Assembly (NCBI RefSeq): GCF_040958095.1
Contig: NC_091151.1
Coordinates: forward strand, 6,295,018 to 6,359,017
Direction of reading: 5' to 3'
Length of the DNA: 64,000 nt
From: Procambarus clarkii
Lineage: Eukaryota; Arthropoda; Malacostraca; Decapoda; Cambaridae
Position 1 is the first letter of the stretch, and every line of letters starts with the position of its first letter. Made by a program: the position numbers and the translations under genes. Shown in pieces: positions 18,230 through 57,176 of the stretch. A model generated the notes under the pieces. It searched no databases. It was not told the DNA's origin and was given only the letters and a program-made list of their open reading frames with translations.

Positions 18230-19066
18230 GTTAATGATTTGGTGAGTTTAGTTGGAGCTCTGAGAGCAGAGATGGATTCCCTGCGGGAGGAGGTATGAAG
18301 GCTGAGACTTCGAGAGGAAACGAAGGAGGAGACCAGTGTTGACGAGACCTCATCGTGGAGAGTAGTGAAAGACAGGGGTCTTAAGAAGACCTTGACAAGG
18401 CCGCCTACAGACGCCCTAAGGACGGCAAATTCATTTGCCGTGTTGGAGGACGAGTGCTGTAGTGCGCCTGCAGCGAGGCAATCAGCGAGGAACGGCGGAG
18501 CGCAGGCCCCTCAGGCTGCTCAGAAAGTTAGGGCGTTACCGAAGCGAGCTTTGGTTGTGGGAGATTCCCAGGTGAGGAATTTAGACAGAACGTTTTGTGC
18601 CAGAGATAGGGGGAACAGATTATGGGTTTGCTATCCGGGAGCTGGAATTGGTGATATTGTTGAAAACATAAATGATATTATGACGGGAAATGGGAACAAA
18701 CCCATTATTTGTATTAGTGCAGGGGGTAATGACGTTGGGCGAGTTAGGAGTGAAGAACTAATACAGAGATTTAGGACAGCCATTGAATTAGTTAGGAACA
18801 AGGGAGGAATCTCGATCATATGTGGCATTCTTCCAAGAAAGGGGGTGGGAAATGAATGGATGTCGAGGGCACTTGGTGTCAATTGCCGGCTGGAAAGATA
18901 TTGCAAATCAAATGCAATATCTTTCATAGACAACTGGGAACGCTTCTATGGAAGAAATGAAATGTATGCTCGTGATGGGGTGCATCTATCGAGGGCTGGG
19001 GTTGTTGCTGTTGCGAACTCGTTGGAACCAGTGGTTAGAGGTGTTTGTTTGGGTTTAAACTGTTAG
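18230..19066 (+). pseudogene. CR1 ORF1 with SGNH/GDSL-type esterase-like domain
   Basis: A coiled-coil-like start (LVGALRAEMDSLREEV, about 18244-18295) ends in an in-frame TGA near 18296. The 233-codon frame at 18365-19066 holds the rest. It shows SGNH-hydrolase blocks: LVVGDSQVRNLD (catalytic Ser block), ISAGGNDVGRVR (GxND block) and ARDGVHLSRAG (DGxH block). Esterase domains in ORF1 are established for CR1-clade LINEs; the substrate is unknown. It overlaps the start of ORF2 by about 20 bp. The premature stop makes it a pseudogene. Confidence 0.8.
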
Positions 19067-20464
19067 TAGATAGTGGTATGGGAATAATTGATTTGGAGGA
19101 AGGAGGTAATAAAAGTATGTGTTCGTGGGAGAAAAGAATTGGCAAAATGATCAGGGAAAGAAAAGGGCCTCAAAATAACAATTCACTTAGGATATATTAC
19201 ACTAACAGTAGAAGTCTAAGAAATAAAATTAATGAATTAAATGCTCTTGTCTGCACAGAAAAAATAGATATTATTGCACTTACCGAAACGTGGATGAACG
19301 TAGAAAATAGAGAACTATTAGCTGAATATCAGATAAATGGATTTAAACTATTTCACACAGATAGATATATTAGACGAGGAGGGGGATTAGCCATATATGT
19401 TAGGGACAATTTGAAATGTAGTCTCAAAGAGGGAATCAAAACTGAGCCACACACAGAAACTATTTGGATAGAATTAAACGAAAAAGCAAAAAATATTATA
19501 ATAGGAGTTATATATACGCCACCAAATTTAGACAGAATGCAAACAAAGCATCTATGGAATGAAATATCTAGAGCATCTAGATCTAACAGTATTTATGTCA
19601 TGGGTGACTTTAATTTTAGTGGAATAAACTGGGTGAACAAAACAGGGAATAGTGTAGCAGAAGATTTTCTAGAATTAATTGACGATTGCTTTCTTACGCA
19701 ACACATTAAGGAACCAACGCGGGAAAATAATATTTTAGATTTAGTGTTAACAAACAGGGAAACACAAATTAATGCCATCGAAATAGGGAGTGAGCTAGGG
19801 AACAGTGATCACAAAGTAATCAGATTTAGCATAGAATGGAATAGACCTGTCGGAGAAAATTCTGTTAAAGTGCCAGATTTTCGAAAAGCTGATTTTAATA
19901 GCCTAAGAAATTTTTTGGGTCAAATAGATTGGAAACTCTTGGGTATGGGGTGTGGGCCGGACTTAGAGCGAGACATGAACCCAGCGATAGGTGACGTAAA
20001 AGGGGATTTCGATGTGGATTTAATATATAACTTATTTAAGAATATTCTAAATAAAGCACAGGAACGTAGTATACCATACAAATTGAATAGGTCGAATACT
20101 AATGACCCAAAGTGGATAACAAATAATTTAAAGAACCTTATAGGTAAAAAGAGAGCTTGGTACAAAATGATTAAGAATGGGGAAGTCAGGTTAGAACAGG
20201 AATTCATACAACTGGTTAGAAATGTTAAAAAAGAGATTAATAAAGCAAAAAGAAACTATGAAGTTCGCATAGCAGAGCAAGCAAAGTCAAATCCTAAAGG
20301 GTTTTTTTCAGTTATATCGAACTAAGTCTAGGGAAAGGATAGGTCCATTAAAATCTGAGACAGGTCAAATAACGGATAATGACAAGGAGATGAGTAGTAT
20401 TTTTAAGAAATATTTTATATATGTATTTACTAAAGAAGAACTTAACAATATGCCTTCAGCCGAA
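19045..20464 (+). pseudogene. CR1 copy 2 ORF2, N-terminal half (endonuclease)
   Basis: The open frame runs from about 19045 to 20325. It contains a complete APE-type endonuclease: YYTNSRSLRNKINEL, LTETWM, RRGGGLAIYVR, WIELNEKAKN, MGDFNFSGINWVN and NSDHKVIRFSIEWN. The linker to RT follows (NNLKNLIGKKRAWYK). A 1-nt expansion in the T-run near 20301 shifts the frame compared with copy 1. The Polinton interrupts it at 20471 after the AEQV codons. Confidence 0.88.
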
Positions 20465-20470
20465 CAAGTC
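20465..20470. repeat. Left target-site duplication of the Polinton
   Basis: CAAGTC here is repeated at 36299-36304, immediately outside the right terminal repeat. Six base pairs is the duplication length established for Mavericks/Polintons. The empty site can be read in CR1 copy 1 near 14206 as a single CAAGTC. Confidence 0.97.
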
Positions 20471-20647
20471 AGTAGATTATTTGGAGACAGATAGAGCCAG
20501 CTATGTAGGGTAATCAGATAAGAAAATCAGAAGCGGGGAGCCACATAGTGCCACTCCATATTAGGTCACCCAAGGTGTGAGTGGTAGCAGTCGAAAAAAC
20601 AGTGAAGATAGGTATCTATTATGTGCCACTATGATCATGTTCATTTA
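20471..20647 (+). repeat. Left terminal inverted repeat, outer part
   Basis: This 177-bp block is base-for-base the reverse complement of 36122-36298. It starts AGTAGATTATTTGGAGAC. A second, diverged copy of most of it follows at about 20658-20825, so the left terminus is a tandem pair while the right has one copy. Less similar inverted-repeat homology continues inward to about 20990. Confidence 0.97.
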
Positions 20648-20825
20648 CAGTAAAGTAGCTGCCTATGAAGGGTAATCAGATAAGAAAATCAGAGGCGGGG
20701 TGCCACTTAGAGCCACCCCATATTAGGTCGCCCAAGGTGTGGGGCAGCAACAATCGTAAAATAGTGAAGATAGGTATCTATTATGTGTCGCTATGTTCAT
20801 GCTCATGTTCATTTATACAGAAAAG
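20499..20825. repeat. 162-bp-period tandem duplication inside the left TIR
   Basis: The stretch gggtaatcagataagaaaat occurs at about 20508 and 20670, a spacing of 162 bp, and the two units align along their whole length. The outer unit is identical to the right TIR; the inner one differs at many sites, yet it leads into inner TIR sequence (tttgtataataaacactc) that also exists on the right at about 36064-36081. Confidence 0.9.
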
Positions 20826-21098
20826 TATGACAGTATATTTGTATAATAAACACTCAGGTGAGCGGTAGTTACCCCCACCTCCCCCCTATGGGACAGGTGT
20901 AAAAACAGGATCCTCGCAGTAGGGGCGGTCCCCCCTCACCAGCCCTCCTCATACTTGATGACCTTGAGTGTACCGTAAGAGGGACCAGCCTCCCTTAGTT
21001 GTTTTTAAGTTGGATATATTTTAAGCCTCTATACTTAAAGAAGGAGAAAAAGAAATAATCCTGATGATTTATAGATTATATTATCAAAGTACATAGGG

Positions 21099-24000
21099 TT
21101 AAACATAGTCGTATTGTAGGTCATCTCCCCCCACATAATATTTATTAACAAGACCTCTCCTTCTCGCCCACAAGTCCGTTGTGGGGTCTTCCTCCCCCTC
21201 CTCCTCCTCCTCCTCCTGGGACGAAGATGATGACTCATCATCTCCCAGAGAGTGAATGGGATGTAGTGCGCCTCCCTCAGGTGACTGACTGCTGACGTCA
21301 TAGGGTTCACTCTCGCTGGTGGGGTGTTGTCCTTCCTCTCCTTGTGGTTCAATGACGTCACCACCTTCACTCTCGGTGGACATTCCTTGGGCCGAGGTGT
21401 TGGGGTGGGGCTCGGATGGTATGTCTGGGTGACCATACGCTAGGCTAGTGTATTTATTTAGGTAAAAGCGCTTATCATCAAATGCACTTAAACCCCTCTT
21501 AGTATTGAATGTGGTTGCCATCTGCCCCCCTATGTTTCTTATTTGTGAGTAATTAAAAGTATTTACTACACCATTACTGTGAAGGGTCTCTTTAAAGTGG
21601 TTATGTGTTAAAGATCTTTGCACAGCTCGGGGAATACCCTTAGCGGTGATGGAATTTTTATTGTCAAGCAAAAGCACACTATACATTTTGGGCTTGAGTG
21701 CCACAACTTCAAGGATGTGTTTATCTGACACCTCTGACTTTAACAGCCCTAAAACACCCTTTTTAGAAGGATCATACAAGGGGTGAGTTTCAGGAAAATT
21801 ACTCGTATCCATCCACAAACTAAGGGGTTCTTTCCCCATCTCATTAAAGACATCTTCAGCTAGTAAGGTGAAAATGAAACTGTCTGTATCACTATACACC
21901 AGTTGTACCCTATCTGAATAGTGGTTCTTAAGTACCCTGTACCAAAAATGGTACAAGCTGTATTTTGCTAGCTCAAGAATCTGGAACCCAATGTAATTAG
22001 GATGAGTAATTTTAATGAATGGTCTGGAACTGACAGACAATAATTTATTGTCGCCTAAATGCACCATTCGTTTAAAGCGGGGATTCTTCACCTCTCGTAA
22101 AAAGACCCTAGCTGAAGTCACTAGTTTGGTGTCAATGGCATAACGAGCTGGATTCAGTAGCGTTTTACCAAAAACACTGTTCGTCAGTAATTTGAAGAGT
22201 GTTTTCCTATCATTACTGCTGGAGGCATTTCTATTGTTAACGTTGGTGTTAACAAATTCTGCCATAAAATCTGACTGGTGGAACTCGTAAATTGCATGTA
22301 TTGTTTCCACTTCAAGTCCTATCTCAATAAATAGTTGTAAAAGGTGAAGAGATATGAAATAATGTTTTTTGGGGAGATGATCTCCAACCAGTTTGATGTT
22401 TTTTGGGGGGAGGTGTGTGATGTTATTTGTTTCCAGAAGTCCCCTACTAAATGGTGAGATATCCTCCATACTTATTCCCCTATGGTGTAAACAAAGGGGC
22501 AGATCGTCTGTTAGTCTAGCTATTTCGGGTCTTAAAAGTTTGGTGTCAATTAAGAGCCAGTACCCTTTGTTAGAAGAGAAAGGCTGTTCTGTCATTATCT
22601 TCCCCCCGCTAATGAAGGAGTTCATCTCATCAGATGATAGTCTCCTTAGTCCCCCATGGGGCAATTTCCTAGTCATACAACTCCCATAGAGGCTGTTAAA
22701 GTCGAGATAAAGTAAGAATGAAGACCTATCCTCCTGGGGGTTAAAAGATGGGTTGACATAGCGGTTGTTAGCTCTGACATAACTCCTAACTGCAGTTGTA
22801 AAACCCCCTCGTATGTTTTGTGATAAGAGATTGTGCAACGTCACATCTGCACTTAACTCCAACGATATTCTACTACTTTTCAGGAAGCAGTCGTAGGAGT
22901 ACCCTGGGAGGCTGCAATAGTGTGTCAATTCTAAAGAATATATATCATTTAGAATTGCCCTATGGTGTGTAAAAATGTCAGCCAGTAATCCTACATCACA
23001 CCTCAAATAAATGAGGAGGTAGTCTTTTAATGTCCTACACCCTGTAGCCTCCCATACTAATTTAGAATGTCTATATTCGTCCAAAGTTATACCTGATTTG
23101 TTTAGGGAGCTGTAGAACATTTCAATAGGAGGGAGTGTTGTGTCATTAAAGCAGCTGATTTTTGTGGTATATTCATAAGGGAAAAACTGCTTACCCTTTA
23201 AGAGTAGGTGGTGACTCTTTTTGGGCAAACCCTCTATCATTGAGTGAGTGAATGTTAAGGGGCTGGCTGAATCAATGTGGGTCTTTGCTAGGGATGAAAG
23301 ACTACCTGTAATAAAAGCCAGTGAATCAAGAAATTTAAGCTTCCCTATTTCCACCTTAAGATATTTCGTCCCCTGTCTCATGAGGATATTGCTCTTAATA
23401 TTTGAATCCATGGTAAACTCCCTCAAAATTAAGCCCATGTCATAAGACATATTATGGGCAATTAGAACTAAACTCTCCAGAGCATTCTTGTGGCGGAGGT
23501 TGCAGTAATTACATAGAGCTCCAATATAATTGAGCTTTTCCCTAAGGTGATCATGATGTTGAACCTTGAAATTGGAGGGGGTAAATACCTGCTCACAAAA
23601 CTGGCAGTGAGTCTGTCTCCTAAAATGGATCATATCCTCAAGAGACATGTCTATTTCATAATGGTGGAGGGTAGATCTGATAATTTCCCATTTGGTAGCA
23701 ACTCGCTGCATGAAATGAGTAACACTGTCCCCCCCAAAATAAGTAAATTTATCAACGACAGTGTGGTTCCTATCAACAATTATATAGCTGTATGCTATAG
23801 GTCTATGTATGGCTGTAACAGAACCTAGACAATCCTCAGTGCTTAGGACACACTCGAAATCAAAATAGCCCACATGGGAAGGGGCATAACCTTTCCCCGT
23901 ATTTTTAAAATGGAGTGTGTCCCCAGGCTGCGGGTAAATAATTTTCTGAGTGATGTCGCAGGAAGATGAGTGATTTGTTAGCTCAGACGAATTTTGATAT

Positions 24001-25163
24001 TCTGAGAGACAGTTTCTACAGAAGACTGTCTTTCGTTTGTGGCTGCGAGTAAAGTTCCGAAGGAACTTATCGAACTCTTTTATCAAGGTCACATGAGATT
24101 CCCCCAATAACAATAAAGGAACTATGACCGAGTACTGTCTGCTACCACGACGACAAAGAGAGACGTGATAGACGCCATCTGTATGTTTGTGTATTGAATA
24201 CAAAAAAATGGATAGTTTATTTCTATTCTCCAATTTAGAGATATCCTCCCAAGACAGAGGGAAGGATAAATTGTCGTATTTGACCATTTTCCTAACCCTA
24301 GAGTGAGACTCTACAAGTCTCCCTATACGTCTCCACTTCCACCCTTGTTGTGACGCCAGAAAAGCAGCAATGCACTGAATAATACATGTTTTATTGTTAC
24401 CAGCCGGGTTTGGGTTGAAGACCTCATGCCGTCCCCTTAGAAATGGGGGATAAGGGACATAATCCCCCAAAACTGACCTTACACTTGCATTACAGATGAC
24501 GATTTTGAGGAAATCGACATTATATAATATGAAACCACTCCCCTCTGTTTCTGAAAGGAGATCTTCCAGTCGTGTAATCATATAAGCCACCCAGCTATCA
24601 ATAAGATTACCCACATCCTCAAGAGTTACCAGTCTAGCGGGTGTTGTTATGAAGTGTTCTCTAAAGTCATCATCTTCCGTGAGTCGTTGTTTCAAAAGTG
24701 TTACCTTTACCTCGAGGAGGATTTTTAATGATGAAGTAAAATTGCCATGTCCCCCAAGAGAATTCATGTAATTCTCTATTTCAGATATGTAATAGTCCCT
24801 AAAGTTGCTTAGGAGTCCTATAGGGTCTGTGGCGAAGGCTGAGGGGATGGAATATTCCAGCCTAGTAAAGAGATTCCCCAGAGCCCCCACCCTATTAATT
24901 AAGTGGGGGGTGTCTATAGCATCCTCCTCATCTGGGGAATTTTCATCACTATTTAGGGCATTAAGTCTATTGATGACAGGGGGTGTAAGACCACTAGGGC
25001 CCGGCTGAGAGATGTCACCCCTATCACCATCATCACCATCATCATCATCACTCATCGCTTCCTCTCCCCCCTCCCCTCCACCTAAGGGGTTATTGTCACG
25101 CTGTGCTTTGTCATGTTCCTCCCCTACCTGCCTCTGAATCGCTCCTGGAATGGAATAATAATA

Positions 25164-25234
<71 letters not shown>

Positions 25235-25754
25235 GGCAACACCCTCTCACTAAACCCCATGACATAAGTTCTCAAAAAAGATTCTTAAGAGAAATAAAGG
25301 TGGAGGGTTTATTCACTCACCACGGGGGCATGTTTGTAGATGTTCAGAGGTCAAGTCCTCACACACAGAGGTCCCACAATTATCACAAGGGGAAGTGTGG
25401 TGAGGTCTCAAGGATGTATTTCCACACAAAAAGCACAAGAAGCCATCCTCTCTGGAAGGGAGGGTGGGCTGGCGACGTTTACCTAATGAAGGAAATAGTG
25501 TATAATTTATATACACTCTCTCTCCCACACTCATGGAGAAGGGGAAAACCCTTCTTAATATTTTTTTTATTTGAAATAAATGAATAAATAAATATATAAA
25601 ATACGGTCATACCTCCAGCACAGGTTCTCCTGTGTTCACCACTAGACTGTACACATACAGTTTCTCCGCAGAAGAAACATGTGTAACACCTATGAACGAA
25701 GAGATGTGATGACCCCCATCCACAAATTCTACAAATATCACCAACTCGAGACAT
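21099..25754 (-). CDS. Protein-primed-type family B DNA polymerase (PolB), three coding exons
   Basis: This is the replicative polymerase of the element, expected to copy linear DNA from a protein primer. Proposed coding exons on the minus strand are 25754-25613, 25482-25321 and 25144-21099, joined at GT-AG introns in consistent phase 1; the total is 1450 codons, with no internal stop. The first two exons hold Cys/His zinc-finger-like modules. The large exon has an N-terminal region with CRNCLSEYQ-type cysteines, the exonuclease motif FDFECVL (about residue 530), a Cys/His cluster (HCQFCEQVF...CNYCN), then polymerase motifs DFNSLYG (about 914), NSVFGKTLL (about 1090) and YSDTDSFIF (about 1185). 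It ends in an acidic tail rich in Glu. Without splicing the large frame would begin in a poly-Ile run coded by an ATT microsatellite, which is an artefact. It is transcribed divergently from the ATPase. Confidence 0.93.
25155..25234. repeat. ATT/AAT microsatellite in a PolB intron
   Basis: About 26 trinucleotide copies lie between the donor of exon B (25320) and the acceptor of the main PolB exon (25145). It codes for poly-Ile in one minus-strand frame, which should not be taken as protein. Confidence 0.95.
25321..25482 (-). other. PolB upstream exon B (zinc-finger module, duplicate of exon A)
   Basis: The acceptor ttccttcattag precedes 25482, and the donor GTGAGT lies just below 25321. The exon is 162 nt (symmetrical, phase 1-1) and encodes FLCFLCGN, SPCDNCGTSVC and SEHLQTC. 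Its cysteine/histidine spacing is the same as in exon A, so the pair looks like a tandem exon duplication. Both exons even begin with the same GTAA(A/G)CG bases after the acceptor. Confidence 0.75.
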
Positions 25755-25769
25755 AACGATCACGCTTAC
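25613..25769 (-). other. PolB upstream exon A (zinc-finger module with start codon)
   Basis: A pyrimidine-rich acceptor (ttattttag) precedes 25769. The first ATG at 25754 opens MSRVGDICRICGW. Cysteines are spaced C-x2-C, then HRC-x2-CFFC, VC and EH-x3-TC. The exon ends at 25613 before GTATGA (donor). The frame entering from upstream is closed in the other two phases, so the exon probably contains the initiation codon, with a non-coding leader exon upstream (donor GAGAT/GTAAGT at about 26125-26119). Confidence 0.7.
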
Positions 25770-25770
25770 C

Positions 25771-26676
<906 letters not shown>

Positions 26677-27333
26677 ATGGAGGAGTGTGCGTCTGTCACA
26701 GACGAGCAACTTAATATTTTCCACCACCCAGCAAGAATATTTGTAGCTGGATTCAGTAATTCTGGGAAAACGACCCTAGTGGGGAATTTATGTGTTAAAT
26801 ACCACGGAAAATTCTCAAAAATTTTAGTGTCATCTGCAAATAATACAGAACAACCTCTTTCAAACATTCCATCTCTGCGAAACAAGGTTACTGTCTCCCA
26901 GGATCTGATTAACCCACTAGAGTATAAAGATCCTTTTTCAAATGAGTCAGTTTTGTATATAATTGATGACTTATACCTGGAAGCCATACAGAGTCCAATT
27001 ATAGCCAATATCTTCACAAGAGGGAGACACGGTAATATTTCCGTAATTCTAATTAGTCAAAATTTGTTTCCCCAGGGGAAATACGCCAGGACAATAACTC
27101 TGAATTGTAGTCATTATATATTAATGAAGCAGAGAGACATAAGCCAACTTGAAATTTTAAGTGGACAGTTATATGGGCGAAAAACAAGTAGTAGTTTCGT
27201 TGAAATATACCGTCGGGCAATATCCCAGAACAAGTATGGTTACTTATTGGTCGATCTGACGGTTCCTGAGGCATTACAACTACGAACGAGCATCACCAAC
27301 GAAGACCACTGTGAAATTGTGTATCAAATGTAA
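26677..27333 (+). CDS. Polinton packaging ATPase (FtsK/HerA-A32 type)
   Basis: This 218-aa protein would power genome packaging into the capsid. Walker A is GFSNSGKTTL at residues 25-34, Walker B is LYIIDDLYLE at about 93-102 with the acidic pair at 97-98, and a downstream ISQNLF (about 126-131) fits the glutamine sensor of this ATPase group. Length is close to that of other Polinton ATPases. The ATG at 26677 has good context (aatATGG) and a TATAAG motif about 41-46 bp upstream. The integrase begins 20 bp after its stop. No frame damage is visible. Confidence 0.93.
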   Translation: MEECASVTDEQLNIFHHPARIFVAGFSNSGKTTLVGNLCVKYHGKFSKILVSSANNTEQPLSNIPSLRNKVTVSQDLINPLEYKDPFSNESVLYIIDDLYLEAIQSPIIANIFTRGRHGNISVILISQNLFPQGKYARTITLNCSHYILMKQRDISQLEILSGQLYGRKTSSSFVEIYRRAISQNKYGYLLVDLTVPEALQLRTSITNEDHCEIVYQM

Positions 27334-27353
27334 TCAACAACGACAACAAAAAA

Positions 27354-28478
27354 ATGTCTCTAACGACACAGACACGAACAATTCTCACCAGTATCTATAA
27401 TGACATTTCTAGCCCAGGTGGTTTCACAGGGTCAATTCAAAAATTGTATAAGGCTGCCAGACTTAAAGACCCCAACATTAGTGTTGCAGATGTGAGGGAA
27501 TTTCTCCATGGGGAGCGATCTTACACATTACATAGAGGAAATTTAGTTAGGTTCCCCCGACGGAAAATATTAGCCCCTAAACCTCGTACCATAATTGCCT
27601 GTGACCTAGGGGACTTTTGTAGTTTACAAAAATACAATAATGGTGTTAAATATATTTTAATTTGTGTCGATGTTTATTCCCGCCTAATGCAGACTCAAAC
27701 TTTAAAAACAAAAAATTCGAGTGAAGTGTTAGTCGCTCTGAAGAAGATATTAGAGGAAACGCCTCAGTTTCTCGGTGTAAGGCGGATATTCACTGACCGA
27801 GGTAGAGAATTTTACAACAAGTCAGTTCAAAATTATTTTAATAAGAAAAATATTAAATTATATAGTGTATTTTCGGAAATGAAATCTAGCATAGTGGAGC
27901 GAGCCATCAGAACTTTAAAACATAAACTGTATCATTATATGACTCAAGCTAATTCATTAAAATACACCCACATCCTCCCTAAAGTTGTGGACGTGTACAA
28001 CCACACTTTCCACAGGATGCTAAAAAATACTCCTCATGCCATTCATAAGTTGCAAAATATTGAAGATATACGAAGACAGTTTAAGGTCATGTATTTAAAC
28101 AATGACTCCTCCATAACTGCCATCAGTCCACGGCTGCACCTTGGACAGCATGTGCGATTGGCAAAGCGCAGGAATATATTTCACAAAGGCTTTTGGCACC
28201 AAAATACAGAAGAAATATTTGTAGTGTCACATATTGACAGAACACATCCAATCCCGACATATAAAATCAAAGATTTAAACAACGAGACGATCAGTGGCAT
28301 GTTTTATGAGCAGGAATTGATTGCAACATCCCTTCCAGACTATTTTCCTGTAACGGTATTACAGTCTAGGAAAACATCGAAAGGACACAGAGAATATTTC
28401 GTCAAGTGGAGAGGGTACCCAGATTCTGCCAATAGCTGGATTAAAGCTCAAGACATCGTCAAATTTAACAAAAAATGA
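27354..28478 (+). CDS. Polinton integrase (DDE, retroviral type) with C-terminal chromodomain
   Basis: This 374-aa enzyme would join the element ends to host DNA and create the 6-bp duplication. The N-terminal region has the family pattern of a DVREFL helix, YTLHR and FPRR. Catalytic residues are D84 (ACDLGDF), D148 (FTDRGREF) and E182 (SIVERAIRTLKHKL). A chromodomain occupies about 332-372 (YFVKWRGYP, SWIKAQDI) with the aromatic and KWRGY hallmarks. Chromodomains on integrases can steer integration toward marked chromatin; that role here is inferred. The stop codon overlaps the ATG of the next gene (ATGA at 28475-28478). Confidence 0.95.
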   Translation: MSLTTQTRTILTSIYNDISSPGGFTGSIQKLYKAARLKDPNISVADVREFLHGERSYTLHRGNLVRFPRRKILAPKPRTIIACDLGDFCSLQKYNNGVKYILICVDVYSRLMQTQTLKTKNSSEVLVALKKILEETPQFLGVRRIFTDRGREFYNKSVQNYFNKKNIKLYSVFSEMKSSIVERAIRTLKHKLYHYMTQANSLKYTHILPKVVDVYNHTFHRMLKNTPHAIHKLQNIEDIRRQFKVMYLNNDSSITAISPRLHLGQHVRLAKRRNIFHKGFWHQNTEEIFVVSHIDRTHPIPTYKIKDLNNETISGMFYEQELIATSLPDYFPVTVLQSRKTSKGHREYFVKWRGYPDSANSWIKAQDIVKFNKK

Positions 28479-28816
28479 CAGTTCAAGAGGACTCTCTCGT
28501 AGAGAAACATCATCAGTTGTTATTTTTATTAAACAATTTATCACCCAAGAAGCGGAATAAACTAATCAAGGCTTTAAAACGGCAGGAAATTGAATCAATT
28601 TGTGAAATTTTTGCCAATTTTCTGAAACGAAACATCCCAGTTCAACCTCAGATAATTAATGGCTTACAGAGATATCAGAACGACATACGATCTGTAGCAC
28701 GTAAGAAAACTCCTTTATACAAAAAGAAGCTCATACTGACCTCCAGACGTGGTGGGGCGATATTAGCAGCTCTGCTACCTTTGGCTGTATCGTTAATTTC
28801 CTCCCTAATAAGGTAA
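28475..28816 (+). CDS. Small basic protein with C-terminal GG-hydrophobic segment (PX1-like)
   Basis: This 113-aa protein starts inside the integrase stop (ATGA overlap). It has a helical, charged N-terminal two thirds (LSPKKRNKLIKALKRQEI), a basic stretch (TPLYKKKLILTSRRGG) and a hydrophobic C-terminus (AILAALLPLAVSLISSL). The layout of a lysine-rich region, then GG, then a hydrophobic helix recurs in small proteins of Polintons and adintoviruses and recalls adenovirus core or membrane-lytic minor proteins. That comparison is by pattern only. It could be a structural, membrane-active or DNA-condensing protein. AATAAA at 28839-28844 could end its transcript. Confidence 0.75.
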   Translation: MTVQEDSLVEKHHQLLFLLNNLSPKKRNKLIKALKRQEIESICEIFANFLKRNIPVQPQIINGLQRYQNDIRSVARKKTPLYKKKLILTSRRGGAILAALLPLAVSLISSLIR

Positions 28817-28838
28817 TTACGTAAATAAGTAACGAGAG

Positions 28839-28844
28839 AATAAA
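28839..28844 (+). terminator. AATAAA poly-A signal abutting the next start codon
   Basis: The hexamer AATAAA is immediately followed by ATGG (start at 28845), so the polyadenylation signal of the upstream unit and the start context of the next gene share one short stretch. Use of the signal is inferred. Confidence 0.5.
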
Positions 28845-29705
28845 ATGGTGAAAGAATATTGCCTGGTACCACGATTCATAGCTGAAAAATATTTATTTAA
28901 TAAAAACAAGAACTCACCATCACCTCCTAATGCTGTGGGTCTGCCCTCCCCCGGTGGTGATGGTAGTGAAAGTATGTCCTTCTCTTTAAAAAACGAATCC
29001 ATCCCAAGTAATAATATTGGGGGAGCCCGTAACCTACCCACCTGCGACTCTGGTAGGGGTGATGGGGGGGTGGGGGAAGAGGACACTCCTTCCTCCCACC
29101 TGACAACAACGGGCTGTGGGCGGTGTTGCCGTAGTAGCACCTCCAGACGGGCGGGGCTGGTCACACACCCTTTAAATGACATTGGGGCCCCCGGCGACCG
29201 TCGCCCGCCGCCACCCTTAAAAAGAAAAAAAAAAACGCGGGCTGCCCGGCGCGACCATCGCCTTTTAAAAAAAAAAATAAATAAAAAAAGGGGACATTCC
29301 ATCCTCCCGCCCGAAGTGCAAGTAATTGTTGCTGGCCACACTCCACATAAAGCCACCATCACACCCCAAAATCCAAGTCTGGACAACTTAATAAATGTGA
29401 ATTTTAAAATTGAGGAAATTCCTCATGTCAAAGCATTATTGAACATGTTTGGACAAAACAGCCAACAGGTGATGTGGGATAGTCGCAGAAATTTATTAAA
29501 GCCTGTACAAAATTTAAATATTTTAGATATAATTAAAACTCTAGCCTTCACAAAGGGGCAATTTAGGGCAAGTGACAAGGAAGATGTAAGGGTTTTACTG
29601 AGGGTGGCTGGCATAGACCCAACCCTCATACGTAATTATCGCGCTAGATCTCAGTTAAAAGGGGGGAGGGGTATCCATAGGAGACCCCATTGGGAGCCGT
29701 ATTGA
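28845..29705 (+). CDS. Unrecognised 286-aa Polinton protein (MVKEY...LVP type)
   Basis: No function is assigned. The N-terminus reads MVKEYCLVPRFIAEKYL, followed by about 140 residues of low-complexity Pro/Gly/Ser/Arg linker whose DNA has two similar GC-rich blocks and long A-runs. The C-terminal 110 residues look folded: LDNLINVNFKIEEIPHVKAL, LNILDIIKTLAFTKG and VRVLLRVAGIDPTLI, then a basic GGRGIHRRPHW end. From memory of the family, an N-terminal MVKEY-LVP box plus a C-terminal helical domain recurs in Polinton genomes at this place beside the capsid genes, so a structural or DNA-binding virion role is possible. The linker may vary by slippage. Confidence 0.65.
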   Translation: MVKEYCLVPRFIAEKYLFNKNKNSPSPPNAVGLPSPGGDGSESMSFSLKNESIPSNNIGGARNLPTCDSGRGDGGVGEEDTPSSHLTTTGCGRCCRSSTSRRAGLVTHPLNDIGAPGDRRPPPPLKRKKKTRAARRDHRLLKKKINKKRGHSILPPEVQVIVAGHTPHKATITPQNPSLDNLINVNFKIEEIPHVKALLNMFGQNSQQVMWDSRRNLLKPVQNLNILDIIKTLAFTKGQFRASDKEDVRVLLRVAGIDPTLIRNYRARSQLKGGRGIHRRPHWEPY

Positions 29706-29758
29706 AGACCTATATGAAGACCATCTTAAAGACCACCATATTCAGTTGCATATCCACC

Positions 29759-30097
29759 ATGGAGCAAGCTTCTAGACCCACTCCTCCCCCAGCTACACCC
29801 CCAGAAGACAAATCTCCCTTATTAAAGAAGTTGGTTGCTACTCAGCGGTACTACAAGTATGTCGAACACAAATGTAGATTGATATATGCATTGTGGGATT
29901 GTTATGACCGTCTTGTGTTGAGTGCCCCTCCAGAACGGTTTTTTAAGTCATTTGGAGAGACGGTGAAACGTTATGAAGAATATTCATCCCAGGAAATCCA
30001 GACGGAGATATGGCAAATGGAAAAATTAACCTTCCAACATCGAGACCAGATTACAGCCTTCGAGACTGGACGGAGTGTGTATGGACTTTTAAGGTAG
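29759..30097 (+). CDS. Unrecognised small Polinton protein (112 aa from the preferred start)
   Basis: The frame is open from 29690, but ATG 29759 has better context (accATGG) and does not overlap the upstream gene. A Pro-rich start (PTPPPATPPE) precedes a compact helical region: LLKKLVATQRYYKYVEHKCRLIY, WDCYDRLVLS and EEYSSQEIQTEIWQM. No signal peptide, transmembrane segment or family motif was seen. Its place between the 286-aa gene and the 331-aa gene suggests a late or accessory role; nothing more can be said. Confidence 0.6.
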   Translation: MEQASRPTPPPATPPEDKSPLLKKLVATQRYYKYVEHKCRLIYALWDCYDRLVLSAPPERFFKSFGETVKRYEEYSSQEIQTEIWQMEKLTFQHRDQITAFETGRSVYGLLR

Positions 30098-30158
30098 GGA
30101 AGGCAGCCTCTACACCACACCCCATACATCCCTCCCCCTCCAGGTGGGGGACACAGGT

Positions 30159-30169
30159 GTATTTAAAGG
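30159..30169 (+). promoter_or_regulatory. TATA-like element upstream of the 331-aa gene
   Basis: GTATTTAAAGG lies about 72-82 bp before the ATG at 30241, leaving room for a 40-50 nt leader. It is followed by a pyrimidine-rich leader (ccgttcctctcaaccgcccc). Confidence 0.5.
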
Positions 30170-30240
30170 CCTCCACCGTCACCCTCGGTCACCATAGTTG
30201 ACGGCGACTCTACCCCGTTCCTCTCAACCGCCCCTCCGCC

Positions 30241-31236
30241 ATGGCTTTATCGTCCATTAAGTCAATAGACAGCGACATCACCGACACCCACGCCTTTGGG
30301 GTCGGTGATGTGATCGTTTACGATCTACCCGCTGCTGTTGTGCGTCCCTATGGACTGGCAAGTGTAATTTGGAAATGTTACAACTATGCCCGTGTGGAAC
30401 GTGAAGGACTGACTCGTGTCAACAGGGCCACAATACGTTACCGGTCTACCCCGGGTGACATCGAGGTGAAGATAGCTCCCCTACCCTCCGACGGTCAAGA
30501 CATTGTCGAAGAGCCAGTCTTGTTCTTCCGCCCCACCATCGTGGCGCTAATTTCCGCTTTCGGTGCAGGAGCACCCTTCGAGTCCAACCCTATAGCTCAG
30601 GAGCAAGTGCAGTCTTCCTCCGACATCCACTACATCACCAATGTCACCCTGGATACTGCCAAGAATAGGCTGTTTTGGCTGAAAACAGCCCTAACAAAGG
30701 TTGGCAATCTCATGGTAAGAACTCCAACCATGTTTCGGCTGGTGGTGCCCCATGGGCTGGGGGCCTCCCGTGATGGCATGGACAACTGGCACAAGGACGT
30801 CGGGCCCATGCTCATTTCGCTCAACGCTGAGCTGGGCAAGCATAACAAGGAGCTGGTAATCCTCAAACGTCCCTCTACCGTCACCCCATCGATGGTACCC
30901 CTCCCGAATGATGATCCCAGGGGAGAGGGTGATAGTAAAACTATCACCCTAGATGCAGTGGTGGGGGAGGGTGCCACCACCCCAGGAAGCTCTTCTCGTT
31001 CTACACCACCAGCACCACCACCCACCCCCAGGAAGAAGAGACACCTACAAGAGTACTCATCCACCTCCAGCGCTGCTCCACCCCCACCCACAACATCTGG
31101 CACGGCCAAACGACGAATCGAAACCACTATTGACTTCGACCCCCTCTCAAATCATCGTATTGACACCATCCTCGATGGAGAGTCACAGGAAATATTCCTG
31201 TTATCCTCATCACCGAAAAAACAACGAAAGCTGTAA
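30241..31236 (+). CDS. Unrecognised 331-aa Polinton protein
   Basis: The start ccATGG has excellent context. Residues 1-225 look like a folded, mixed alpha/beta domain (for example VGDVIVYDLPAAVVRPYG, RATIRYRSTPGDIEVKIAP and NRLFWLKTALTKVGNLMV). The C-terminal 100 residues are Pro/Ser/Thr-rich with basic patches PRKKRH and AKRRIE that could be nuclear-localisation signals. The gene is distinctly more GC-rich than the ATPase, integrase or capsid genes, which suggests a separate history. No catalytic motif is evident. Sitting upstream of the penton-like gene, it could be a replication, scaffold or regulatory protein; this is a guess from position only. Confidence 0.65.
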   Translation: MALSSIKSIDSDITDTHAFGVGDVIVYDLPAAVVRPYGLASVIWKCYNYARVEREGLTRVNRATIRYRSTPGDIEVKIAPLPSDGQDIVEEPVLFFRPTIVALISAFGAGAPFESNPIAQEQVQSSSDIHYITNVTLDTAKNRLFWLKTALTKVGNLMVRTPTMFRLVVPHGLGASRDGMDNWHKDVGPMLISLNAELGKHNKELVILKRPSTVTPSMVPLPNDDPRGEGDSKTITLDAVVGEGATTPGSSSRSTPPAPPPTPRKKRHLQEYSSTSSAAPPPPTTSGTAKRRIETTIDFDPLSNHRIDTILDGESQEIFLLSSSPKKQRKL

Positions 31237-31280
31237 CCATCAACGCTCAAAGAAGACGTGCCAGCACCACCACAGTCAGT

Positions 31281-31315
<35 letters not shown>

Positions 31316-31676
31316 CAGTACCTCCATCTACAACAGCTTCGGTGGTGGTAGCAGTAGCAGGTCCACCGACGATGGTGACAGTGTTGTCAGCGGCAGTGGT
31401 AGCGGCAACGGTACCACCAACTACAGCAGTTCCGGCGGTGACAGCGGCAGCAACAGTACCATCATCGCCGGCAGCGGTAACGGTAGCGGCAGCAGTACCA
31501 CCAACTACAACGGTTCCAGCGGTGGTAGCAGCAGCAGCAGCAGCAGCAGTACCGTCAGCGGTGGCAGCGGTGTCAGTGGTACCAACAGCTCCCCCAGCAG
31601 CAGCGGCGGCGGCAGCAGCGGACGACAGCAGTACCAACAGCTGCTGCTCTTTATATGTAATTTGTTATGGGGGGAC
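31237..31676 (+). repeat. Ser/Ala-coding AGC-rich low-complexity tract downstream of the 331-aa gene
   Basis: AGC/GCA/CAG-type triplets stay open in several frames. One frame gives long Ala/Val/Thr runs; another, reached by a -1 shift at the AAAAAAC run near 31217-31223, gives Ser/Gly/Thr-rich sequence. It may be a 3' untranslated tract, an alternative C-terminus or slippage debris. A poly-A signal follows at about 31734. Confidence 0.55.
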
Positions 31677-31732
31677 AAAAATGTAGTTCCCCCTGTTGTA
31701 GTTCTTTTAAAAGTAATATTTCCTTAGTAGAT

Positions 31733-31745
31733 TAATAAAATAAAA
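31733..31745 (+). terminator. Poly-A signal cluster (AATAAAATAAAAT)
   Basis: Overlapping AATAAA-type signals stand after the 331-aa gene and its low-complexity tract and just before the penton-like gene. A TATAAG motif (about 31746-31751) follows at once, so the end of one transcription unit appears to touch the promoter of the next. Confidence 0.6.
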
Positions 31746-31794
31746 TATAAGTAATGATGTTTTATTCCCACCCCAGTCAGTACATAACTTAACA

Positions 31795-32661
31795 ATGGAC
31801 GAGGAACACTACATATACCTCACTAGCCTCGACCAAGAAGATATATACAACAACACAAGTTCAGCATTTACAAACACCATCCCCACCCTACATTTAAACC
31901 CCTCCATTAAACATGAAGTGGCCTTAGTCAACATACTCCTACCCAGACGAATTAACGCTATCATCAAGGATGAGGGGGAGTCTGGTATAGACGTCTATGC
32001 TACTTTTAAGCGAGGAACTCTTTCTAAAAGCCCAGAACATCTCATCTACACCTACATCCCCAAAACCAACATATTATCCAGAAACATCACATTCATCACG
32101 AGTGAGCTTAGCCGACAAATAATCACCGACATGAAGCTTAGCTTCCGAGGTGATTTCAAAATATACTTCTCAGAAAGAGAACCAATCCTCACCTATGATC
32201 AATCCTTAGAGCGAGTGTTACTATCCTCAACACTTAACAATGAAGGCACTGGTTCCTTATATTCTCTTAGTCTTCAATTTAAACACAGAATAGCTAATGT
32301 ACTTGGTTTTGACAGCAGTCGCAAATACACCATTTATCAGGCAAAATCAGATGACATTACAGCAGCCTCAAAGATCGTGGCCTCATTCCCCCCAGACAAT
32401 GACGGAGGTTGTGACTATTTACTCATTTATAGTGACGTCATCGAGCCGGATCGTTACGGGGGACAAATTGTAAATATCTTAGATGCAATCAATTATCATG
32501 ACTCTTATTCTAGAGGAGCTCACCCCCTAGTGTACAAGACATTAAATACTAACACGTTGGAGAAGGTGAGCATTAAGATAACAGATCAGTTTGGGCGAAA
32601 GGTTAGTTTTGAAGATGGGAGGTCGGTTACGGTAGTCTTACACCTCCGCCCTAAGGTATAA
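31795..32661 (+). CDS. Minor capsid protein, penton-like single jelly-roll
   Basis: This 288-aa protein would form the five-fold vertices of the virion. Family features seen: a YIYLTSLDQEDIYNNTSSAFT start, the HEVALVNILLPRR strand, and the C-terminal block DVIEPDRYGGQIVNIL then VSIKITDQFGRKVSF and VTVVLHLRP, which is the usual penton ending in this group. Length matches Polinton and adintovirus pentons. The ATG at 31795 (acaATGG) sits about 44-49 bp downstream of a TATAAG motif, after a polypyrimidine-AG that could also be a leader splice acceptor. The frame is intact. Confidence 0.9.
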   Translation: MDEEHYIYLTSLDQEDIYNNTSSAFTNTIPTLHLNPSIKHEVALVNILLPRRINAIIKDEGESGIDVYATFKRGTLSKSPEHLIYTYIPKTNILSRNITFITSELSRQIITDMKLSFRGDFKIYFSEREPILTYDQSLERVLLSSTLNNEGTGSLYSLSLQFKHRIANVLGFDSSRKYTIYQAKSDDITAASKIVASFPPDNDGGCDYLLIYSDVIEPDRYGGQIVNILDAINYHDSYSRGAHPLVYKTLNTNTLEKVSIKITDQFGRKVSFEDGRSVTVVLHLRPKV

Positions 32662-32671
32662 CAATATAATC

Positions 32672-32711
<40 letters not shown>

Positions 32712-32738
32712 GAAGTGTTTACCCACATCATCGGTTAT

Positions 32739-32744
32739 TATAAG
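32739..32744 (+). promoter_or_regulatory. TATAAG box near the PX2-like gene
   Basis: TATAAG here is only 13 bp before the first ATG (32758). If it works as a TATA box, transcription would begin near 32768-32775, beyond that ATG, and translation would start at the in-frame ATG at 32848. The same hexamer stands before the ATPase (26631) and penton-like (31746) genes. Confidence 0.45.
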
Positions 32745-32757
32745 AAGAGGAGTCGGG

Positions 32758-33186
32758 ATGCGAGTACCTTTCCACACACCCTCCCAGAAGGAGTATGGGG
32801 AGATCTTCTCCCCCCTCTCTGGGAGATACGGGGTGAGGGGGGGAGCGATGAATGACATACGCACATTCCAAGCGCCTTATCTCAGATCTGGTGGTGGTTT
32901 TTTTGGGACCTTAGCCGGCTTGGCTCGACGAGCCATACCATTTTTCATGAAAACTGTAACGCCGACTGCTATCGATTTTGGGAAAAATGTTCTTGGTGAT
33001 TTAACCAGTGGTAGACGGGATGTAAAGAGCGCTCTGAGAACTCACGGTATTGATGCTCTTAAGACTGTGGGGAAGAAATTGGTAGCAGGCGGGAAAATTA
33101 AAAGACTCTCTAGGAGAAGAAAAAATAAAAATAATAAATGTAAACGAGCCCTTGGGTATAAAAATGATGTATTTTCACTACAGTAA
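32758..33186 (+). CDS. Small basic protein with Gly-Gly hydrophobic segment (PX2-like, possible minor virion protein)
   Basis: This 142-aa frame, or 112 aa if started at 32848, shows the segment LRSGGGFFGTLAGLARRAIPFF (about residues 42-63), written here in two parts as LRSGGGFFGTLAG and LARRAIPFF. It is followed by an amphipathic region and a strongly basic C-terminus (KRLSRRRKNK). A Gly-rich box followed by an arginine-bearing hydrophobic helix and a basic tail is typical of adenovirus-pX/pVI-like and Polinton minor proteins. Double-Gly sites could be cut by the adenain-like protease encoded downstream. It lies between the two capsid genes, which supports a virion role. The exact start is uncertain. 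Confidence 0.75.
   Translation: MRVPFHTPSQKEYGEIFSPLSGRYGVRGGAMNDIRTFQAPYLRSGGGFFGTLAGLARRAIPFFMKTVTPTAIDFGKNVLGDLTSGRRDVKSALRTHGIDALKTVGKKLVAGGKIKRLSRRRKNKNNKCKRALGYKNDVFSLQ
33157..33164 (+). promoter_or_regulatory. TATAAAAA box for the major capsid gene
   Basis: TATAAAAA lies inside the last codons of the PX2-like gene, 53-60 bp before the major capsid ATG (33217), a spacing suited to a short leader. This embedded position fits a compact, virus-like layout. Confidence 0.5.
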
Positions 33187-33216
33187 GCAGTCATACTTCA
33201 CCTTTCGGAGGAGATC

Positions 33217-34572
33217 ATGGCGGAGGCTAGTGGAGCTGGGTTGAAAATCCCTGTAGAATATTATACTTCCAGTATTATTGACCAATTTCCTAGAAGTAAC
33301 AGAATACGTAATGTGGAGAGTTCAATTGCCTCCACACAGCAAATAGACATTCTACCTGTTAACCTACCTATTAATCAACGTTTGCGGGATAATTACTTAG
33401 AATTCCGCATCCCCGGAACCCAGGGCGCCTTCTTAGATTTAGCTAATATTGTTATAGATTTTAAGGTATCTTTAACGAAAGATGACGATACCACAAAATT
33501 GGAAGAGGATGACCATGTGGAATTTGTTAATGGGTTGTCAAATACCATGTTTAAAGGTGTTCAGGTGTTTTTAGGAGAGCAGGTAGTTGAAACAAATTCT
33601 AATTTTAATTATTGGTCGTTTATTAAATTAATTACCTCCATGCCTCCATCAAAAATGTCTTCCTTGGGGAGGATTGGAGCCTTTCGTAGGGACTGGAGTG
33701 ATGATGGTGTAATCCCTAACGAATTTACTAATACATTTTTTACTGGGGCAACCGCCAAGGATAAAAAATTTATGACCGATTTAAAAGGTAAAGGATTGTC
33801 AATGTGTTTTCCCCTACTATTGGACGTAACAACCCTAGACCAATACATATTAGATAATATAGATGTGCGCCTAAGATTGGAGCTCTCCCCACATGCTTGG
33901 GTGCTAAATACAAGTGTGGACGATGGCTCTAAGTATCGGCTGCATATGGATTATGCTAAGTTGTGGGTAACACGAGTGTTCCCCTACCCAAGTGCTTACC
34001 TAGCCTTAAACAGCTCACTGTTAGCATCCCCCGACCCCATAAGCTATACTTTCAATAAAACCATTTCTAAAACATATGTCCTAGCAGGGAATCAAACTAG
34101 TCTCTTAATTGATCAGCCTTGGGCGCAAGTAATTCCTCACAGGATATTCATGGTAATTGTGCCAATGAATTATTTCGCTGGCCTTCACCAAGGTAATGGA
34201 TTATATTTTGAAAATGCAAAACTGAAAAATATTGCCATGTATTTGAACAATAATGCAATTTACCGAATTGGTGGTGATTTCGACAATCATTATGCCCGCC
34301 TTTATTACGAAACTTTGAAGACATTAGGCTTAGAGCGTGATTCACTTCTAGCCTATGACACTTTTAATAAGGGAAGATCGATATTCGCCTTTGACTTAAC
34401 CACCATTCAAACAAAGGATTCCCTCCCTGTGGAGAAATCTGGCAACTTGCGTATGGAGCTTGAGTTTGGTGGCGGTGTTACATATAACAGGCTGGTTTTA
34501 CTGTTTGGGGAAACGACCGGGGTACTATCCATCGACGGACAGAGAACTGTTCTGTGTGACGTGCGAGCTTAA
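33217..34572 (+). CDS. Major capsid protein, double jelly-roll
   Basis: This 451-aa protein would form the trimeric hexon-like capsomers. The order of recognisable blocks fits Polinton major capsids: an N-terminal arm ending in DILPVNLPINQRLRDNYLEF, the first jelly-roll with LANIVIDFKVSL and VQVFLGEQVVETNSNFNYW, the middle LCFPLLLDV-like strand (MCFPLLLDVTTLDQYI), VRLRLELSPHAWVLN, and the second jelly-roll ending in NLRMELEFGGG and RLVLLFGETTGVLSIDG. Length is close to the group norm. No frame damage is visible. The protease ATG follows the stop by 7 bp. An alternative long frame overlapping the end in the +3 frame belongs to the protease upstream extension and is not used. Confidence 0.93.
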   Translation: MAEASGAGLKIPVEYYTSSIIDQFPRSNRIRNVESSIASTQQIDILPVNLPINQRLRDNYLEFRIPGTQGAFLDLANIVIDFKVSLTKDDDTTKLEEDDHVEFVNGLSNTMFKGVQVFLGEQVVETNSNFNYWSFIKLITSMPPSKMSSLGRIGAFRRDWSDDGVIPNEFTNTFFTGATAKDKKFMTDLKGKGLSMCFPLLLDVTTLDQYILDNIDVRLRLELSPHAWVLNTSVDDGSKYRLHMDYAKLWVTRVFPYPSAYLALNSSLLASPDPISYTFNKTISKTYVLAGNQTSLLIDQPWAQVIPHRIFMVIVPMNYFAGLHQGNGLYFENAKLKNIAMYLNNNAIYRIGGDFDNHYARLYYETLKTLGLERDSLLAYDTFNKGRSIFAFDLTTIQTKDSLPVEKSGNLRMELEFGGGVTYNRLVLLFGETTGVLSIDGQRTVLCDVRA

Positions 34573-34579
34573 AAACATA

Positions 34580-35146
34580 ATGAATTGTAATGATATAAAT
34601 ATTAATTTAAAAAATAATCTAGGGGATCGAGCACTCTACCTAGGTTGTTATAATGCTGATGAAATAGAACATTTAAATATCTCATCAAGAAAACCTATTG
34701 TTCTCATAACTAATATTTTACCATCACATAGCAGATTAACTATGGGACATTGGGTAGCTATTTATGTTGATAAAGTTAAACATCGAATGTTTTTTTTCGA
34801 TAGTTATGCAATGTCGGCGGTTACTTATGGACATTATTTTCAAGGATTTATTAAAACTAACACAATAACAAAGGTGTTTGGAATGTGCTACAGACTCCAG
34901 AGTGATTTTACCCTTGCTTGTGGACTGTATTGCGTAATGTTCGTCCATAGGGTGAGTCACCTGGGGTTGCCTTCAACAGTACATTACTTACATAATGTAT
35001 TTTCAAGCGTTAGTTTAAAATTAAATGATAAACGTGCCCTCGCTTATGCGAGACGATATTTTCCTATGAAACATCACTGTGTTAGGACATTTTGTAGAGG
35101 TGTAAGGGTTGGTTCTTATAGGTGGTGTAGAGAATATTTTTGTTAG
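34580..35146 (+). CDS. Adenain-like cysteine protease (virion maturation protease)
   Basis: This 188-aa protease would trim virion proteins during assembly. From ATG 34580, the catalytic residues are H57 (MGHWVAIYVD), D74 (FFFDSYA), Q107 (YRLQSDF, oxyanion) and C114 (LACGLYCVMFVHR), in the order and spacing of adenovirus protease. The frame is open further upstream (34460), but that stretch overlaps the capsid gene. ATG 34580 is chosen because it lies 7 bp after the capsid stop and matches the family length. The tail is Cys/Arg-rich (CRGVRVGSYRWCREYFC). Confidence 0.92.
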   Translation: MNCNDININLKNNLGDRALYLGCYNADEIEHLNISSRKPIVLITNILPSHSRLTMGHWVAIYVDKVKHRMFFFDSYAMSAVTYGHYFQGFIKTNTITKVFGMCYRLQSDFTLACGLYCVMFVHRVSHLGLPSTVHYLHNVFSSVSLKLNDKRALAYARRYFPMKHHCVRTFCRGVRVGSYRWCREYFC

Positions 35147-35180
35147 CTAGGCAACCCACCTAACAGGGGGATTACCCCCA

Positions 35181-35187
35181 TATAAAA
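35181..35187 (+). promoter_or_regulatory. TATA box of the three-exon small gene
   Basis: TATAAAA lies 54-60 bp upstream of ATG 35241, followed by a pyrimidine-rich, C-rich leader. This is among the clearest core promoters in the element. Confidence 0.65.
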
Positions 35188-35240
35188 CCCCTCTCACCCC
35201 ACAACCTCCCTAGAAGACCCCCATCCCCCTTATCCTACAA

Positions 35241-35790
35241 ATGGAAGGCGTCTCCCCAGAAACACACGCAGGGAAGATTGAAGTCCTTGAAGGGCCTGGT
35301 TAGTATTACCCTCACTTTCTGGTAAAGATTTATTTTTTTTCCCACAATAGAAAGTTTGCTCAACCTCTATTTTACCTCTTCTTTTTTTTCAGTGCAATTC
35401 TTAGGACCTGTCCACATTTGTAGAGTAGTAATTCTACGAGGAAGGTCTGCCCCAAACAAGATGCTGTTACGTACCCTAATTGATGATGCCTGCTGTAGAG
35501 GACACAAGGTCGCTCCTGCAGGGGGAGAGGTATGTACTAACTGTTCTTAGAGGAAATAGAATATTTTTCAAATAAAAGATATAGTCCTATAAATTATTTT
35601 CCCCATCTCTTTCCAGAACACTTCAGATGAGAGTCAGAAGGAAAGTCGTCCAAAAGGCAACCAGCCAACTCACCCCACTCCCCCAAGAGAGGGGGGAGGG
35701 GGTCAAGACCTCCCCCCACTCACCACGGATGGGGAGACGTCAGAATTCTACTCAGATGAGGAAGGGGAGGTGGAGGGGGGAGAGGGATAG
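35241..35790 (+). CDS. Unrecognised acidic small protein, three exons, 122 codons
   Basis: Proposed exons are 35241-35298, 35393-35529 and 35617-35790. All introns are GT-AG (donors GTTAGT and GTATGT; acceptors ttttttttcAG and ctttccAG), of 94 and 87 bp. Phases are 1 and 0, and the joined frame is open to TAG at 35788-35790. The middle exon codes for a compact hydrophobic/basic core (VHICRVVILRGR, LLRTLIDDACCRG). The last exon is Pro/Gly-rich and ends in an acidic stretch (SEFYSDEEGEVEGG). It has its own TATA box and poly-A signal. No family is recognised. It could be a regulator or host-interaction protein of the element; function unknown. Confidence 0.72.
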
Positions 35791-35832
35791 GGGTCATAAT
35801 TAACTTCTTATACATCATTTGTGATTTTTACC

Positions 35833-35839
35833 TAATAAA
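35833..35839 (+). terminator. Poly-A signal of the three-exon gene
   Basis: TAATAAA (in ctaataaaacatt) lies 43-49 bp after the stop codon at 35790 and is followed by a T-rich, then G/T-containing stretch typical of a cleavage region. Confidence 0.7.
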
Positions 35840-35900
35840 ACATTATTAATTCTTTGATTTTTTTTTACCCCTGGAGGAGATTTATAATTTAATACCCCTA

Positions 35901-35906
35901 TATAAG
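35901..35906 (+). promoter_or_regulatory. Outward-facing TATAAG box beside the right TIR
   Basis: TATAAG at 35901-35906 is followed by a pyrimidine-rich start-like stretch and by GTTACGGTAAAGT, which resembles a splice donor. No gene follows on this strand before the element end at 36298. It may drive a TIR transcript, or it may be a remnant of a lost gene. Confidence 0.35.
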
Positions 35907-36121
35907 ACCCACTCAACCTCCGCTGGGTGTGGAACTCTGTTACGGTAAAGTCAAGGCCATTAGGTGTGAGGAAGGGTACGGGCGACCACCCTCACCGGGA
36001 GGAACCTGTTTTACACCTACCCCATAGAGGAATGTGGGGGGCATAACTGGCACTCACCCACGAGTGTTTATTATACAAATAAATTCATTTTTACTTAAAT
36101 ATATTGTCATACTTTACTGTA

Positions 36122-36298
36122 TAAATGAACATGATCATAGTGGCACATAATAGATACCTATCTTCACTGTTTTTTCGACTGCTACCACTCACACCTTGGG
36201 TGACCTAATATGGAGTGGCACTATGTGGCTCCCCGCTTCTGATTTTCTTATCTGATTACCCTACATAGCTGGCTCTATCTGTCTCCAAATAATCTACT
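36122..36298 (-). repeat. Right terminal inverted repeat
   Basis: This block is identical in reverse complement to 20471-20647 (177 bp). Inward of 36122 the inverted homology with the left side continues at lower similarity to about 35930. Unlike the left end, there is only one copy of the 162-bp unit. Confidence 0.97.
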
Positions 36299-36304
36299 CA
36301 AGTC
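36299..36304. repeat. Right target-site duplication of the Polinton
   Basis: CAAGTC immediately follows the terminal CTACT and matches 20465-20470. CR1 ORF2 sequence continues directly after it (TATGTGGGTGGGGATGAGG). Confidence 0.97.
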
Positions 36305-57165: not shown

Positions 57166-57176
57166 TTAATATTATT

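Follow-up and report, generated by a model that had tools for sequence, protein, structure and literature searches.

An apparently complete Polinton of the adintovirus kind and its young family in the genome of the crayfish Procambarus clarkii

A 64-kb stretch of contig NC_091151.1 from the crayfish Procambarus clarkii (hereafter the window, to which all coordinates refer) contains a Polinton/Maverick element (adintovirus-like; the family is now Eupolintoviridae) of 15,828 bp at positions 20471-36298, exactly the interval delineated by an initial annotation that was made from the sequence without database searches. The two terminal arms (20471-20647 and 36122-36298) are inverted relative to each other and complementary at 177 of 177 nucleotides (100%), and the element is bounded on both sides by the same hexanucleotide, CAAGTC, which represents the target-site duplication (TSD); the identical termini and the duplication had also been recognized correctly in that annotation. 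The features of the element and its boundaries are as follows.

20465-20470, no strand: left copy of the TSD CAAGTC, the 6 bp directly before the element
20471-20647, plus strand: left terminal inverted repeat, 177 bp, starting with AGTAGATT
20501-20806, plus strand: tandem repeat in the left arm, unit of 162 bp, 1.9 copies
21099-25265, minus strand: PolB, family B DNA polymerase (Pfam DNA_pol_B_2 and motifs)
25775-26634, no strand: AT and AC microsatellites in the interval between PolB and the ATPase gene
26677-27333, plus strand: packaging ATPase of the A32 type (Pox_A32, 35 bits against a cut-off of 22.8; Walker A motif)
27354-28478, plus strand: retrovirus-type integrase with a C-terminal chromodomain (Chromo, rve and catalytic residues)
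28475-28816, plus strand: open frame of 113 amino acids (aa), with a weak match to a PHROG without an assigned function
28845-29705, plus strand: open frame, 286 aa
29690-30097, plus strand: open frame, 135 aa
30241-31236, plus strand: open frame, 331 aa
31258-31686, plus strand: low-complexity open frame across tandem repeats, possibly not a gene
31795-32661, plus strand: candidate minor capsid (penton) protein (labelled by gene order)
32848-33186, plus strand: small basic protein, putatively pX-like
33217-34572, plus strand: major capsid protein (MCP), 451 aa, double jelly roll by predicted fold
34580-35146, plus strand: probable adenovirus-type cysteine protease (sub-threshold Peptidase_C5 match and motifs)
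36122-36298, minus strand: right terminal inverted repeat, 177 bp (arm-to-arm comparison)
36299-36304, no strand: right copy of the TSD CAAGTC, the 6 bp directly after the element

The insertion splits a long interspersed nuclear element (LINE), leaving its endonuclease frame on the left and its reverse transcriptase frame on the right. When 150 bp from each flank are joined and aligned to the LINE copies within the window, the joined sequence is identical at 287 of 300 positions to the copy at 14061-14360 and at 276 of 300 positions to an antisense copy at about 51294, in both cases ungapped and with CAAGTC present once.

19045-20325, plus strand: left part of the split LINE, endonuclease frame
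36527-37462, plus strand: right part of the split LINE, reverse transcriptase frame
14205-14210, plus strand: empty site in the paralogous LINE copy (joined-flank alignment)
51294-51299, minus strand: empty site in the second, antisense LINE copy (joined-flank alignment)

Because both paralogous copies carry CAAGTC once and align without gaps, the locus represents a single insertion. For practical purposes, the two empty sites exclude chance as well as a false join, and with it the mis-assembly of two loci that the initial annotation had named among the findings that would refute its reading.

When the curated cut-offs of Pfam are applied to the long open frames of the window, DNA_pol_B_2, Pox_A32 and Chromo score above them, and rve and Peptidase_C5 slightly below. 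The DNA_pol_B_2 match of PolB reaches 56.1 bits (cut-off 25.8); the long frame of this gene starts inside an AAT microsatellite, and the next methionine codon is at 25055. Exonuclease and polymerase motifs, as we take them to be, are present in PolB. In its N-terminal region, Cys294 and His391 are invariant across 14 aligned PolB relatives, and these are the residues that a Cys/His protease (OTU-like domain) would need. The integrase contains the catalytic residues D84, D148 and E182 and matches rve with 32.2 bits (cut-off 32.6); its chromodomain (Chromo, 37.4 bits) occupies residues 335-371 of 374, and HP1-type chromodomain chains are among the PDB matches. The protease frame contains the catalytic-type motifs GHW, FFDS and CGLYC, and the search of Peptidase_C5 against the longer frame 34460-35146 yields 20.5 bits (E value of 0.0004), below the cut-off of 21.3. 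In PHROGs, weak matches alone are found, for the polymerase, the ATPase, the integrase (transposase matches) and one small frame; the small basic protein has no family match in Pfam or PHROGs.

The structure model of the MCP is a clear double jelly roll, and its fold matches include an adintovirus capsid protein at rank 5 (E value of 1.5e-18, 11% identity). Scans of IMG/VR with the MCP and its 30-sequence alignment detect no relative, and PDB sequence searches with the MCP, the MCP profile and PolB return nothing meaningful. The penton candidate has two homologues (32% and 29%), and the model built from three sequences (predicted local distance difference test score, pLDDT, 44.6) is too poor for a fold test or a search. 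The capsid structure prediction proposed in the initial annotation supports its assignment for the major protein. Of the core genes listed there, PolB, integrase, ATPase, protease and MCP are all open, and the claim that virion genes are retained holds for the MCP, by predicted fold, and for the protease, by motifs and a sub-threshold Pfam match; the minor capsid assignment is unconfirmed.

The genome (4.03 Gb in 2308 contigs) contains the left 200 bp of the element in at least 40 places at 99-100% identity (the best 40 candidates), and pieces of the 39 copies other than that in the window were taken for reading. The penton candidate, pX and the MCP are found in 34 of these 39 stretches at 97.9-100% identity, with one MCP cut by the end of its stretch; of the remaining five, two have an MCP listed further along on the same strand in the whole-genome search, which fits a nested insertion, and for three none is listed there. 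Both ends are readable in 27 of the 39 copies (in 12, the right end cannot be placed), a perfect 6-bp duplication is present in 26 of these 27, and a comparison of the left and right ends within each copy shows no difference in 17, one differing site in nine and five differing sites in one. This pattern bears out the recent insertion suggested earlier from the window alone; identical ends are usual across the family, and are therefore no special mark of the window copy. With the window copy included, the 27 copies that have duplications occupy 25 distinct insertion sites. The bases of the duplication are biased symmetrically about a central ACGT (24 sites; one AT-rich site was dropped), amounting to 1.2 bits against at most 0.67 bits at 157 other offsets. 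A partial second 162-bp unit also adjoins the left end of other family copies, and this tandem unit may serve in regulation or replication.

In the whole-genome protein searches, the best candidates were scored, so that the counts are lower bounds and biased to intact copies. Among the best 110 of 4841 integrase candidates, 106 are without a stop and all are 97-100% identical; none of the best 94 of 3044 MCP candidates and none of the best 86 of 3340 PolB palm candidates contains a stop (the palm list includes some open frames that greatly exceed the gene in length). By self score, 78 of the 94 scored MCP loci, window copy included, encode the identical protein, and at 41 of these 94 an open integrase and an open PolB palm are listed as well. 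The search for further copies, also proposed at the outset, thus gives at least 155 loci on 73 contigs with one or more of the three genes under 50-kb chaining; 12-kb chaining gives 162 loci and can split a copy with a nested insertion, so that the figure of 155 is used here. Some loci pair an identical MCP with an integrase at about 98% identity, which could mean that constraint is unequal or that lineages have exchanged blocks. The copies L037, L038 and L049-L051 include several with the same flank, one whose right flank reads as the reverse complement of its left flank, and two left ends that face each other about 10.8 kb apart; these are inverted duplications or assembly fold-backs. The family is young and possibly still mobile.

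Gene intactness and variants were assessed in copies picked by their left end. Among genes read whole, 32 of 33 are intact for the MCP, 30 of 33 for the protease, 24 of 28 for the penton candidate and 10 of 10 for the integrase; pX agrees with the window copy in length and stop in 32 of 34 cases, the others being one in-frame deletion and one frameshift. Variants found in at least two copies (shared) should for the most part be older than the insertions, whereas variants of a single copy (private) include post-insertion decay. The ratio of silent to replacement changes is 11/0 among shared and 16/17 among private variants of the MCP, 2/0 and 12/8 for the protease, 10/6 and 14/11 for the penton candidate, and 1/1 and 0/1 for pX. 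Pooled, the counts are 24/7 shared and 42/37 private (Fisher p 0.030), and the MCP alone gives p 0.003; without second copies at the same site, p is 0.007, and when one divergent copy and the lesioned copies are also removed, 0.014. Given a site expectation of about 3.5 replacement changes per silent one, the 11/0 ratio of shared MCP variants has a binomial p of 7e-8. On average, two copies differ at 0.35% of MCP positions; for the non-coding arm on the right the value is 0.51%, and shared variants persist there at 0.013 per site. The variant counts indicate that the MCP has been under strong purifying selection during the expansion of the family.

Taken together, the observations are best compatible with an apparently complete Polinton provirus, that is, an adintovirus-like virus with a linear DNA genome that integrates and also acts as a transposon. 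Its copies probably spread at least in part via particles or capsid-dependent germ-line transfer, and not solely by copying within a single cell. Since replacement changes were removed from the MCP and silent ones kept, the particle or capsid-dependent component is the most likely explanation of this constraint, which fits spread by particles and is no proof of it. By the known biology of the family, replication by PolB would be protein-primed and start at the ends of the element; the ATPase would package the linear genome into the double jelly-roll capsid, the protease would mature the capsid, and the integrase would insert the element into new DNA, in this family with the weak palindromic ACGT preference described above. 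The further proposition that this virus is mobile at present and reaches the germ line as particles, which are still made in living animals, and that the 155 or more loci record repeated reinfection, is a tentative one that we consider rather doubtful.

Several observations weigh against a role of particles. The skew of variants rests mostly on the MCP: the integrase sample (12 rows, the window copy and 11 others) has none, with silent/replacement ratios of 2/2 shared and 3/7 private, and the penton candidate, with six replacement changes among 16 shared variants, is far less constrained than the MCP, its identity as a minor capsid protein being plausible and unconfirmed. Private variants are also below the neutral expectation (ratio 0.25), so that the shared and private classes overlap. 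The best-hit lists favour intact genes, and gene conversion among copies could mimic conservation.

The best of the alternatives is a purely intracellular, self-synthesizing transposon that PolB and the integrase copy in germ cells, with the capsid genes as passengers whose apparent conservation reflects nothing but the youth of the burst. At the low divergence of the family (0.35% in the MCP and 0.51% in the right arm), most genes would be open anyway, the constraint on the integrase is no stronger than neutral drift could give, and the observations all come from genome sequence; however, 11 silent and no replacement changes among the shared MCP variants (p 7e-8) are unexpected for a passenger gene, and we regard this explanation as unlikely. 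Less probable still is the homogenization of the capsid end, whether through gene conversion or because a single master sequence replaced it time and again, in which case the identical MCP would reflect copying and not selection. The identity of the MCP in 78 of 94 loci, some of which have integrases at about 98%, is compatible with this possibility, and the whole right part could be swapped as a block; yet conversion should erase silent and replacement changes alike, whereas 11 silent shared variants persist in the MCP and the adjoining non-coding arm also retains shared variants. Retention of the capsid genes because they serve the host, for instance in defence, would account for the high conservation of the MCP across loci; it is very improbable, since the conserved gene occurs at many loci instead of a single fixed one and resides within entire mobile elements that carry ends and duplications of their own. 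An assembly artefact, by which one sequence was placed repeatedly or falsely joined, hardly deserves credence: the shared flanks and the reverse-complement flank described above show that local errors or duplications exist, but the window insertion is backed by a duplication of its own and by the two empty sites in paralogous LINE copies, and the copies with duplications lie at 25 distinct sites.

The remainder of the window includes other repeats. Two LINE frames on the minus strand, 39683-42625 (980 aa) and 46905-49640 (911 aa), are open and have endonuclease and reverse transcriptase matches, at odds with the description of all surrounding LINEs as decayed in the initial annotation. A DDE_Tnp_1_7 transposase, which we take to be of the piggyBac type, is encoded at 43309-45200 on the minus strand and is probably frameshifted because it is spread over two overlapping frames. 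The sole Rfam match in the window is a complete 5S rRNA gene (57176-57294, minus strand, 111.5 bits); it is followed by a 60/124-bp repeat array (59093-60334) and a long 30-bp minisatellite (60397-63390).

Relatives of the MCP are encoded in P. clarkii (92% identity), Cherax quadricarinatus (56%) and Penaeus japonicus (45-46%), and relatives of PolB likewise in P. clarkii and C. quadricarinatus; all are uncharacterised in databases. The P. clarkii MCP at 92%, the best from this species in the protein database, would be another lineage or copy of the element. Over 65% of the region used as query, one P. clarkii PolB protein in the database agrees at 99%. Other PolB proteins of the species (P0038 and P0043) reach 37-41% identity to that of the element, so that P. 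clarkii holds further Polinton lineages. In the literature searched, which comprised open-licence papers, no earlier description of Polintons as a family in P. clarkii was found. With its young family, open core genes and near-invariant MCP, this crayfish, common in laboratories and in farming, offers a rare setting in which to settle the particle question, and the family is also relevant to crayfish genome evolution and to the interpretation of virus matches in crustacean surveys.

By the definition of adintoviruses in PMC11071296, the element is adintovirus-like, with a PolB that has a conserved N-terminal Cys and His, a chromodomain integrase, a double jelly-roll MCP and a probable adenovirus-type protease; the renaming to Eupolintoviridae is given in PMC12451622. 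Virophages (Sputnik, mavirus) and polinton-like viruses differ from it: according to PMC11071308, the PolB of mavirus has mostly lost the exonuclease motifs, which the crayfish protein retains, and in most polinton-like viruses PolB is missing, as is an integrase of this type. Vertebrate Mavericks, as described by Barreat and Katzourakis in 2021 (PMC8097293), have 6-bp duplications, inverted ends of 46-1,447 bp and a size of 12.7-24.6 kb, and purifying selection on the capsid genes of fish Mavericks is used there as an argument for spread by particles, which that paper reports as not observed. The crayfish Polinton resembles them in the duplications, the range of end lengths, the size, the core genes and the apparent selection on a capsid gene. 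It differs in its host and in number: at least 155 loci, with an open integrase and PolB palm at 41 of 94 MCP loci, whereas no vertebrate genome in that study holds more than 38 intact copies, counts that are not directly comparable because the vertebrate test, eight intact genes, is stricter. The element belongs to a known kind, and what is unusual is the scale and uniformity of its family in an arthropod.
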